Below the pieces are notes generated by a model. It searched no databases and was not told where the DNA came from. It was given only the letters and a program-made list of their open reading frames with translations. A DNA stretch of 10,851 nucleotides, from positions 1-10,851 of the forward strand of contig JAQBQC010000198.1 of NCBI GenBank assembly GCA_028287205.1, written 5' to 3'. Below, in pieces: positions 7,670 through 10,851 of this stretch (the stretch's first letter is position 1; every line of letters begins with the position of its first letter). This DNA is from Gemmatimonadota bacterium (GTDB lineage: Bacteria > Gemmatimonadota > Gemmatimonadetes > Gemmatimonadales > Gemmatimonadaceae). The position numbers and the translations under genes were made by a program.

Positions 7670-8509
7670 ATGGTCTCGCCCGTTCTGTCCCGCAACAACG
7701 TGAAAGTCTTCGGGCGTGGTACACAGCCGATGCTCTTCGCGCACGGCTTTGGGTGCGATCAGAACATGTGGCGCTTCGTCACGCCCGCGTTCGAGAACGA
7801 CTACCGGATCGTGCTCTTCGACTACGTGGGATCCGGAAAGTCCGAGCTCGCATCCTACGATCCTGAGCGCTACGCGACGCTCGATGGCTACACGGAGGAC
7901 ATCCTCGACGTCTGCCGCGCACTCGATCTCCGCGAAGTGATCTTCGTCGGGCACTCGGTGAGCGGCATGATCGGTCTGCTCGCGGCGAACCGCGCGCCCG
8001 AGCTGTTCGAGCGACTCATCCTCATCGGTCCGTCGCCGCGCTACATCAACGATGCACCCGACTACGTGGGCGGCTTCGAGCGCGCGGACATCGAAGGGCT
8101 CCTCGAGACGATGGAGAAGAACTACATCGGCTGGGCGAACTTTCTCGCGCCCGCGATCATGAAGAATCCGGATCGTCCCGAGCTCACGGCGGAGCTCGAG
8201 GCCAGCTTCTGCTCCACCGATCCGGTGATTGCGCGGCGATTCGCCGAGGCGACCTTCTTCGCGGACAATCGCGCCGACCTCGCCGCGGTGCAGGTGCCGT
8301 CGCTGATCATGCAGTGCTCTGAAGACATCATCGCGCCCAGCGAGGTGGGAGACTATCTGAGCCGCGAGCTGCCGGGAAGCACGCTGCAAACGCTCCGCGC
8401 CACCGGACACTGTCCGCACATGAGTCATCCGGAGGAGACCATCGCCGTCATGCGCGAGTATTTGCAGGCGCCGGTTGATGGTGTGCAGAGCGCTGCCCAA
8501 ATCGGCTGA
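7670..8509 (+). CDS. rsbQ: RsbQ-type alpha/beta hydrolase (PAS-sensor activating partner)
   Basis: 279 residues, about ten longer than B. subtilis RsbQ (269, from memory). The match runs from [10 protein letters not shown] to GHCPHMSHP, including [45 protein letters not shown] and [13 protein letters not shown]. The nucleophile elbow is GHSVSG with Ser96, the acid is Asp219 (SEDIIAP) and the histidine is His247 ([10 protein letters not shown]), identical in number to the RsbQ triad. The same fold underlies the plant KAI2/D14 receptors for karrikin and strigolactone. In B. subtilis, RsbQ is a cytoplasmic hydrolase needed for RsbP to signal energy stress; it is thought to act on or deliver a small hydrophobic ligand. 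Here the next gene encodes a kinase with an RsbP-like PAS domain, 22 bp downstream or overlapping depending on its start, so the two probably form one operon and one sensor. The 142 bp upstream contain a GTTTTGC/GCGAAAC imperfect inverted repeat (7611-7635) of unknown role. The longer C-terminus is GVQSAAQIG. Confidence 0.95.
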
Positions 8510-8531
8510 GGTTGCGGTTGTCGGCGAGCGC

Positions 8532-9779
8532 ATGACGAGCGATGTGGCCGGGCTGGATCCACTGCTCGACGAAGCGCCGTGCGGCTTCGTGTCCTTTCTC
8601 GACGATGGGCACGTGCGCGTTGCGAACCGCACGCTGCTCGACATGCTCGGCTATTCCCGCGAAGAGCTGCTCGACAAGCACATCGAGTCCGTCCTCGCGG
8701 TGGGCAGCCGCATTTTCTACCAGACGCATTTTTTCCCGCTGCTCCGTCTGCACGGTCGTGCGAATGAGATCTTCCTGCTCTTGCGCGGAAAGAGTGGCGA
8801 GGATGTCGCGGTGCTCGCCAACGCAATTCGCCGCGAGCGCCGTGGCGAGTGGGTAACCGACGCCGTGCTGATGCGCGTGATCGAGCGGCGCAAGTTCGAG
8901 GATGCGTTGCTCGAGGCGAGACGCGTTGCCGAGGAGGCCACCGCCGCTGCCAACGTGCAGCGAGGCGAGACGGAGAACGCGAACGCGCTCCTGGAGCGAC
9001 AGGCGACGGAGCTCGCGGACACCCATTGGAAGCTGGTGATCCAGGCGCTCGAGCTGGACAAGCAACGCACGATCGCGGAGGATGCGAATCGCGCGAAGAG
9101 CGAATTCCTGGCGATGATGAGCCACGAGCTTCGTACTCCGCTCAACGCGATCGGCGGCTACGTGCAGCTGATGGAGATGGGCGTGCACGGGCCTGTCACG
9201 GCTGCGCAGACGGAGGCGCTGGGGCGCGTGACGCGGAGCCAGCAACATCTGCTCCGTCTCATCAACGATCTGCTCAATCTCGCGCGCATCGAGGCGGGGC
9301 GCGTTGACTACGATCTGCAGTCGATCTCGCTCAATGACATCGTGCTGGCGACGCTCCCGATGATCGAGCCGCAGATCGCCGCGAAAGGGCTGCGCTACGA
9401 CGTGGAGGTGCCGCTCACGCTGAAAGCGGCCGCCGACCGCGAGAAGCTCGAGCAGATCCTGCTGAATCTTCTCTCGAATGCGACGAAGTTCACGGAAAAC
9501 GGTGGAAGTCTGCGCATCGAGGCGACCGTTGCCCCGGAGAGCGAAGACTTCGTCGAGCTGAAGGTCGCCGACACCGGCGTCGGCATTCCGGCCGATCGAT
9601 TGGAGCACGTGTTCGAGCCGTTCGTGCAAGTGGAGAGCAGCCACGCCTCACGCGTGGAGGGAACGGGGCTGGGTCTTTCGATCAGCCGGGACATGGCGTG
9701 CGGAATGGGTGGTGACCTCACGGCGGAGAGCACGCTCGGCGTGGGGAGCACGTTCACGATCCGGCTGCGGCGAGGGTAG
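8532..9779 (+). CDS. Histidine kinase with RsbP-type PAS sensor domain
   Basis: 415 residues from ATG 8532. The PAS domain (about 8-118) contains DEAPCGF, ANRTLL, a FFPLL segment and VLANAI; the same short motifs occur at matching places in the PAS domain of B. subtilis RsbP as I recall it. A long charged coiled coil follows (about 120-190). HisKA has phospho-accepting His198 in EFLAMMSHELRTPLN. The ATPase domain has the N box NLLSNATKF (312-320), G1 DTGVGIP (347-353), F box FEPF (361-364) and G2 GTGLGLSI (377-384), all intact. There are no membrane helices, so it should be cytoplasmic. RsbP itself carries a PP2C phosphatase after its coiled coil; this protein carries a kinase instead. Start choice: ATG 8478 (overlapping the rsbQ-like gene) is possible, but ATG 8532 sits just before the PAS fold and shares MTSD and its DNA context with the next gene. 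Neither has a clear Shine-Dalgarno. There is no receiver domain; a separate response regulator is expected. Confidence 0.92.
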   Translation: MTSDVAGLDPLLDEAPCGFVSFLDDGHVRVANRTLLDMLGYSREELLDKHIESVLAVGSRIFYQTHFFPLLRLHGRANEIFLLLRGKSGEDVAVLANAIRRERRGEWVTDAVLMRVIERRKFEDALLEARRVAEEATAAANVQRGETENANALLERQATELADTHWKLVIQALELDKQRTIAEDANRAKSEFLAMMSHELRTPLNAIGGYVQLMEMGVHGPVTAAQTEALGRVTRSQQHLLRLINDLLNLARIEAGRVDYDLQSISLNDIVLATLPMIEPQIAAKGLRYDVEVPLTLKAAADREKLEQILLNLLSNATKFTENGGSLRIEATVAPESEDFVELKVADTGVGIPADRLEHVFEPFVQVESSHASRVEGTGLGLSISRDMACGMGGDLTAESTLGVGSTFTIRLRRG

Positions 9780-9913: not shown

Positions 9914-9937
9914 ATGACGAGCGACCTCGCATTCTAG
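9914..9937 (+). other. Short ORF ATG-to-TAG; probable original start of the PAS-PAS-GAF gene, interrupted by an amber codon
   Basis: ATG 9914 encodes MTSDLAF and then meets TAG at 9935-9937, in the same frame as the long downstream sensor gene. Immediately after the TAG the frame continues LAPVGLAELTLAGRFTRCN, which aligns with the PAS start of the previous gene (DEAPCGFVSFLDDGHVRVAN). The 13 bases GCATGACGAGCGA are shared by both gene starts. The simplest reading is that 9914 is the ancestral start and one base change made the amber codon. CAG, GAG, TCG, TGG and TTG are all one substitution away. Alternatives are a sequencing error, or a genuine 7-codon leader coupled to a restart at TTG 9953. 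Confidence 0.6.
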
Positions 9938-9952
9938 CTCGCACCTGTCGGC

Positions 9953-10851
9953 TTGGCGGAGCTGACGCTCGCCGGGCGCTTCACTCGCTGCAACGCGCGC
10001 CTCTGCGCGATGCTCGGGCTGGACCGCGACACGCTGCTCACGTACGCGCTCGACGACCTGGCCTTCGTCGGCGAAACAGCCGCAGCGGATGCCGCTTTCG
10101 CCGAGCTTCGTTCCGGCACGTTAGCTACGTGCACGTGGGATCAGCGCCTCCGCTGCGCCAACGGCGCATCAGGATGGATCCAGGTCGCACTCTCGCTCGT
10201 GGTGGGCTCCGGTTCGGCGCCGTCGCACTTCGTCGGCGCATTTGCCGATGCTACGGAGCGCGTCGAGCTCCAGGAGGCCGAGCGCAATGCGCGCGCGCGG
10301 AACGCGGCGATGCTCGTGTCTGCGCTCGACTGCGTCATCACGATCGACCATCACGGCCGCATCCTCGAATTCAACGACGCAGCAGAGCGGACCTTCGGCC
10401 ATCACCGCGCCGACGTTCTGGGTGTGCCGATCGCCGACGTGATCGTACCGCCAGCGCTTCGCGACGCGCATCGAGCAGGCATGGCTCGCTACCTCGCCAC
10501 GGGCGACGCGAAGGTGCTCGGCCAGCGCCTCGAGCTGCCGGCGATCCGCGCCGACGGCACCGAGTTTCCGGTGGAGCTCGCGATCACGCGCGTTCCACTC
10601 CCCGGCGATCCGATATTCACCGCGTATCTGCGCGACCTCACGGAGCGAAAGGCGCGCGAGGCGCGCCAGCGCATTCTGGTCGACGCGAGCAAGCTGCTCG
10701 GCTCCTCACTCGACTACGAGAAGACGCTCCGCGCGCTCACCGACGTGGTGCTGCCGGCGCTCGCGGACTGGTACGTCGTGGATCTGCTCGAGAACGGGGC
10801 GCTGAAACGTCTCGTCGTCTCCCATCGGGATCCGCAGAAGTTGCAGCTCGC
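9953..10851 (+). CDS. PAS-PAS-GAF sensor protein, N-terminal part (3' end outside window)
   Basis: 299 complete codons are open from TTG 9953 to the right edge; the next in-frame ATG is at 10010, inside PAS1. PAS1 spans about 1-102 (AELTLAGRFTRCNARLCAMLG to FVGAFADATER). PAS2 spans ~114-233 and is a strong match: ALDCVITIDHHGRILEFNDA, IVPPALRDAHRAGMARYLATG, RADGTEFPVELAITR and the PAC end YLRDLTERK. A GAF domain begins at ~238 (ILVDASKLLGSSLDYEKTLRALTDVVLPALADWYVVDLLE) and is cut off. This N-terminal architecture usually leads to a histidine kinase or a SpoIIE/PP2C phosphatase, and the output cannot be seen. An in-frame amber codon at 9935-9937 separates the coding region from the better-looking start at 9914. 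The protein may therefore start at TTG 9953 with a shortened PAS1, or the gene may be damaged. No Shine-Dalgarno precedes the TTG. Orientation and proximity suggest a link with the RsbQ/kinase pair. Confidence 0.8.
   Translation, partial: MAELTLAGRFTRCNARLCAMLGLDRDTLLTYALDDLAFVGETAAADAAFAELRSGTLATCTWDQRLRCANGASGWIQVALSLVVGSGSAPSHFVGAFADATERVELQEAERNARARNAAMLVSALDCVITIDHHGRILEFNDAAERTFGHHRADVLGVPIADVIVPPALRDAHRAGMARYLATGDAKVLGQRLELPAIRADGTEFPVELAITRVPLPGDPIFTAYLRDLTERKAREARQRILVDASKLLGSSLDYEKTLRALTDVVLPALADWYVVDLLENGALKRLVVSHRDPQKLQL

Follow-up and report, generated by a model that had tools for sequence, protein, structure and literature searches.

The window, a whole contig of 10,851 nucleotides that ends at position 10851 and belongs to a draft Gemmatimonadota genome (3.09 Mb, 68% complete), was found to contain a gene for an RsbQ-type alpha/beta hydrolase immediately upstream of a gene for a histidine kinase with an N-terminal RsbP-type PAS domain. 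Very probably, the two gene products work together as a cytoplasmic sensor of the RsbQ-PAS type known from the literature, coupled to a histidine kinase. Gene content, domains, the class of the PAS domain, the conserved pairing and the co-variation of hydrolase and PAS were all established for this module. The arrangement of hydrolase, RsbP-type PAS and kinase was already published by Nadezhdin, Brody and Price in 2011 (PMC3183031, cited here from part of its text), and the example described here comes from a lineage for which we know of no earlier description. That report described 45 pairs of RsbQ and RsbP-PAS with PPM phosphatase, histidine kinase or diguanylate cyclase outputs, the histidine kinase being the output in Gram-negative bacteria (PMC3183031). 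Among the titles and abstracts of later literature that were listed, none was found on the kinase form of the RsbQ-PAS module and none announcing its signal.

The hydrolase and kinase genes

The pair and the frame that follows it consist of the following features:

7670..8509, forward strand: RsbQ-type alpha/beta hydrolase, 279 aa, from ATG 7670 to the stop at 8509 (PDB and Pfam matches)
7955-7957, forward strand: codon of hydrolase S96 (residue number checked)
8324-8326, forward strand: codon of hydrolase D219 (residue number checked)
8408-8410, forward strand: codon of hydrolase H247 (residue number checked)
8532..9779, forward strand: PAS histidine kinase, 415 aa from ATG 8532; the ORF 8475-9779 opens at TTG 8475
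8559..8885, forward strand: RsbP-type PAS domain, about residues 10-118 (model, residue map and tree)
8886..9083, forward strand: single long helix between PAS and kinase domains, residues 119-184 (predicted model)
9093..9299, forward strand: HisKA dimerisation and phosphoacceptor domain (Pfam HisKA, E 7e-21)
9123-9125, forward strand: His198 in the SHELRTP motif (read off the sequence)
9435..9770, forward strand: HATPase_c catalytic domain (Pfam HATPase_c, E 6.1e-27)
9953-10849, forward strand: PAS-containing frame after the kinase, opening at TTG 9953 and running off the contig

Comparison with the PDB showed B. subtilis RsbQ (1wom/1wpr) to be the top match of the hydrolase (E 3.2e-115, 387 bits, residues 3-268). 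The second-ranked match (282 bits) was the Olei00960 entry, which we take to be from Oleispira, and plant D14/KAI2 proteins were found among further alpha/beta hydrolases with 203 bits at best. Besides an Abhydrolase_6 match in Pfam (E 4.6e-23), the hydrolase showed an intact catalytic triad, S96/D219/H247, so that both the RsbQ-type assignment of the original prediction and its residue numbers proved exact. Four other weak relatives were found in the same genome, the best at E 5.7e-10; thus, the hydrolase does not belong to a set of near copies.

The hydrolase stop at 8509 is separated by 22 bases from ATG 8532, which we chose as the likely start of the kinase. Clear Pfam matches placed HisKA and HATPase_c at the C-terminus, where RsbP has PP2C, as had been predicted. 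The PAS domain was matched weakly by Pfam (PAS_9, E 1.6e-4, under the family cut-off). The motifs DEAPCGF, ANRTLL, FFPLL and VLANAI, from which a likeness to RsbP had been proposed, were all present in it, and the likeness was borne out by alignment to an RsbP sequence in which all nine published residues land at their published positions.

An AlphaFold2 model of the PAS and helix region, made from an alignment of 73 sequences (the window and 72 of the 77 available loci, without L012, L058, L068, L073 and L076), predicted a PAS fold followed by one helix at residues 119-184 (mean pLDDT 94.9, pTM 0.71). According to the model and the residue map, F62 and H66, which correspond to F55 and Y59 of RsbP, sit in the long PAS helix 57-74. 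The solved folds nearest to the model were PAS domains, including haem PAS domains (best 50 of 1462). A single-sequence query detected no solved relative of the PAS at E <= 0.001, and a profile query of solved structures matched only ordinary PAS domains at E 8.8e-5 and weaker. The coiled coil that had been predicted in likeness to RsbP was upheld as a long helix, residues 119-184 of the model, but not as a heptad pattern, as a crude heptad test on this 66-residue predicted helix fell short of significance, with scores as high in 3597 of 5000 shuffles.

The other genes in the window were predicted to encode FtsX/MacB-type permeases, a PadR regulator, another PAS kinase, a weakly matched DUF2306 protein and a cyclophilin. 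Downstream of the kinase, an ATG at 9914 reaches an in-frame TAG at 9935-9937, and the PAS domains lie in the frame that opens at TTG 9953; a broken start, an assembly error or a later start may account for this in 9914-10849.

A candidate route from hydrolase to kinase

By analogy with the B. subtilis proteins, the hydrolase would bind the N-terminal PAS domain of the kinase, probably at the helix containing F62 and H66. In B. subtilis, RsbQ contacts the RsbP PAS, and F55A and Y59A were reported to reduce this contact in a two-hybrid screen (PMC3183031). The contact between hydrolase and PAS would then be altered by binding or turnover of a small molecule at S96/D219/H247, and an intact active site may be required for this, as in published B. 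subtilis work. We infer that the change would be passed through the long helix to HisKA-HATPase_c and alter phosphorylation of His198, which would in turn feed a response regulator encoded elsewhere. A receiver scan of eight related loci detected a receiver in one of them (L240), in a separate 1393-aa frame about 1.8 kb off.

Two models were set out in 2011: in Model 1 a product is delivered to the PAS, and in Model 2 the hydrolase is itself the receptor (PMC3183031). The small-molecule receptor linked to a kinase that the original prediction put forward is already contained in these two models (PMC3183031). Model 1, in which the hydrolase would make a product and pass it to a pocket of the PAS, with the PAS as the sensor, is a serious contender that we place slightly short of an even chance. 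It agrees with the intact triad and with the finding that substitutions in the triad abolish signalling in B. subtilis (PMC3183031), although a receptor that binds its ligand in the active site would need an intact site too. Haem PAS domains are among the folds nearest to the PAS model, a further point in favour of Model 1, but this likeness is general among PAS domains, and the 2011 report, in the part cited here, knew neither a ligand of the RsbP PAS nor the signal of the module (PMC3183031).

PAS class and output domains

The RsbP-PAS class was described by an RsbQ homologue encoded directly upstream, nine residues, absence of a DIT motif and a coiled coil of at least 21 residues (PMC3183031). 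At RsbP positions 10, 13, 48, 53, 55, 56, 59, 72 and 86, the PAS domain in the window carries C, V, L, R, F, Y, H, E and A, and thereby satisfies eight of the nine class-residue rules, which were taken from the 2011 figure legend with the letter classes at 13, 53, 55, 56 and 59 according to our own reading. The exception is Ala at position 86, a position that is important in RsbP and is occupied by Pro in 112 of 142 PAS domains adjacent to RsbQ relatives. The Pro at position 62 (P62), which was remarked on in the 2011 paper, is shared by the window and 139 of these 142. The 142 adjacent PAS domains (window excluded) satisfied 7.96 of nine rules on average (range 4-9), compared to 2.2 of nine for 30 ordinary PAS domains from the window's genome, in which 32 PAS_9 matches were found; the MAFFT alignment was used for these counts, and an hmmalign control left most ordinary PAS unaligned at the nine columns. 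Towards the end of the domain, a D-[ILV]-[ST] motif was present in 21 of the 30 ordinary PAS but in none of 143 pairs, the window included. In a tree of 174 rows, the 144 RsbP-type PAS domains (window, RsbP and 142 loci) were separated from the 30 ordinary ones by a branch with support 100/96, the tree being unrooted and based on few columns, the ordinary PAS having long end branches and all coming, as the outgroup, from a single genome. The grouping with RsbP that had been proposed for the kinase PAS was thus recovered.

When identical pairs were counted once, 143 distinct pairs including the window's own were obtained, with histidine kinase outputs in 80, GGDEF in 41, PP2C in 13 and none found in nine; these counts are not natural frequencies, since the sample was shaped by the searches and score cut-offs. 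Kinase outputs were found in Gemmatimonadota, Acidobacteriota, Bacteroidota, Chloroflexota, Verrucomicrobiota, Cyanobacteriota and Pseudomonadota, and PP2C in Bacillota only. GGDEF was found in Bacillota, the Paenibacillus order, Cyanobacteriota, one Pseudomonadota record and one locus of the window's phylum. Two kinases (L013 and L036) were found to carry a receiver domain and a third (L021) GAF and receiver domains. At least seven changes of output are required on the PAS tree. The original prediction had the output swapped from PP2C, but an unrooted tree gives no direction for such a change, and the kinase is the commonest output (80 of 143).

In Paenibacillus and its relatives (L054, L057, L067, L073 and L217-L236), RsbQ was found to be followed by a short PAS protein without an output domain. 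These proteins extend 30-78 residues past the PAS, as found in 18 of 20 regions examined and in the four named loci (L231 and L073 being one place). Of the 99 matches of a PAS search in the Paenibacillus order, 24 fall in frames that are 152-225 aa long; a second PAS gene, of greater length, is present in five genomes. Past the outputless pair, the 20 regions showed no next gene in common, and two of them have a receiver-bearing frame downstream. In two of the 20, a PAS is present but the hydrolase is damaged, lying in three pieces in L220 and matching over just 16 residues in L225, and some of the short outputless modules may thus be decaying. RsbQ with an outputless PAS in Paenibacillales is possibly a new variant, absent from this window; the part of the 2011 report cited here mentions no more than two outputless pairs, of which one lies at a contig end and the other is frame-shifted (PMC3183031).

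Besides, a 231-aa protein (P0106) showed an RsbP-type PAS 70% identical to that in the window and a C-terminal sigma-70 region 4 match under the cut-off. It was set aside as a candidate for a new DNA-binding output, being a possible chimera (one protein on a 1197-base contig, with its match below the cut-off).

With respect to Model 2, the hydrolase might truly serve bacteria as a small-molecule receptor in the manner of KAI2/D14, acting by a ligand-dependent contact with the PAS; it would be connected to kinases, cyclases and phosphatases and, in the Paenibacillales, to an outputless PAS-helix protein. We propose this tentatively and consider it rather doubtful. If it is true, the histidine kinase form would be the handiest for finding the ligand. 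This form is the commonest in the sample (80 of 143) and provides autophosphorylation as a simple in vitro read-out for a ligand search; the survey also places kinase outputs in loci of Gemmatimonadota, Acidobacteriota, Chloroflexota and Verrucomicrobiota.

A role of the pair upstream of SigB-type partner switching in response to energy stress, like that of RsbQ-RsbP in B. subtilis, is very unlikely. The one point in favour is the likeness to RsbQ-RsbP, but the protein in the window has no PP2C domain, through which RsbP is connected to this pathway, and carries kinase domains instead. Energy stress, which the original prediction named as the signal in Bacillus, is called an unsupported assumption even for B. 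subtilis in the 2011 discussion (PMC3183031), and the present results give it no further support.

Conservation of the pairing and comparison with known systems

From the matches listed in a search of genome contigs with the hydrolase, 80 loci were kept out of at least 580 confirmed relatives, and in 77 of the 80 the hydrolase is followed immediately, in the same orientation, by an RsbP-type PAS. The exceptions were a locus where the contig ends (L017), one without a PAS (L042) and a Planktothrix locus (L053) in which the RsbP-type PAS gene lies 5′ of the hydrolase rather than 3′. From nine loci of another hydrolase search, one with a 33% identical hydrolase and no PAS (L094) was dropped.

Conversely, when the PAS alone was the query, seven genomes from different groups contained a single match each at E <= 1e-8, in every case beside a hydrolase. 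At E <= 1e-10 the window's phylum yielded the PAS in 21 of 342 genomes, the phylum to which L062's genome belongs in 12 of 349, and the order that includes L054's genome in 94 of 296. An RsbQ relative was found directly upstream on the same strand in all 70 PAS-found loci examined, the window's own included, which were drawn from four PAS searches with the order of L054's genome contributing the best 30 of 99 places. The spacing between hydrolase and PAS in these 70 loci, measured at domain edges, ranged from an overlap of 13 bases to 223 bases apart; L180 and L185 contain part of the hydrolase match only. The conserved neighbourhood that the original prediction expected in relatives was thus found from both directions. 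Chance adjacency of a general metabolic hydrolase and an unrelated PAS kinase, conceivable because both gene classes are common (the 32 PAS_9 matches and four weak hydrolase relatives in the genome), is refuted by these reciprocal counts and by the single PAS match per genome beside the hydrolase.

Within the window's phylum, the hydrolase was found in 28 of 346 genomes at 29 places, with an adjacent PAS at 27 of the 29; at the other two (L107 and L115) an adjacent PAS was not detected. These genome and pairing counts show a module that is scattered across the phylum and, wherever it occurs, tightly paired. The hydrolases of the more diverged loci L105-L116 were 50-63% identical to that in the window, the adjacent PAS, where detected, scored only 40-100 bits with the family profile, and partner recognition may have drifted in these loci.

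Fourteen loci of relatives, chosen for holding the pair (13 distinct, L007 being the same as L242), were used for a comparison of neighbours. The upstream cyclophilin was found in one of the 14, from the same genus, and the downstream frame in none at E <= 1e-15, two loci (L010 and L244) having little downstream sequence. What is conserved as a unit is the pair of hydrolase and kinase itself.

For 70 of the 80 kinase-type pairs, hydrolase distances correlated with PAS distances (r 0.61, partial 0.53) and with catalytic-domain distances (r 0.39, partial 0.12), and the PAS correlation exceeded that of the catalytic domain in 500 of 500 bootstraps, a distance correlation from which shared ancestry is only partly removed. 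At sequence level, this co-variation fits the PAS as the partner of the hydrolase.

As a probable sensor of the RsbQ-PAS kind, the pair in the window has in common with the RsbQ-PAS-kinase module of 2011 an RsbQ encoded upstream, an N-terminal RsbP-PAS, a helical linker, a kinase and a Gram-negative host, with the class residues mostly kept and the DIT motif missing. It differs from the class in that the usual Pro86 is replaced by Ala, and its host is a member of the Gemmatimonadota. With B. subtilis RsbQ-RsbP it shares the numbering of the hydrolase triad, a homologous PAS and a linker helix, but the C-terminal part is a PPM (PP2C) phosphatase in RsbP and HisKA-HATPase_c in the kinase of the window. 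Plant KAI2/D14 receptors, which bind and hydrolyse a butenolide, belong to the same hydrolase family as the protein in the window and are more distant from it (203 bits) than RsbQ is (387 bits); they signal via other kinds of partner protein.
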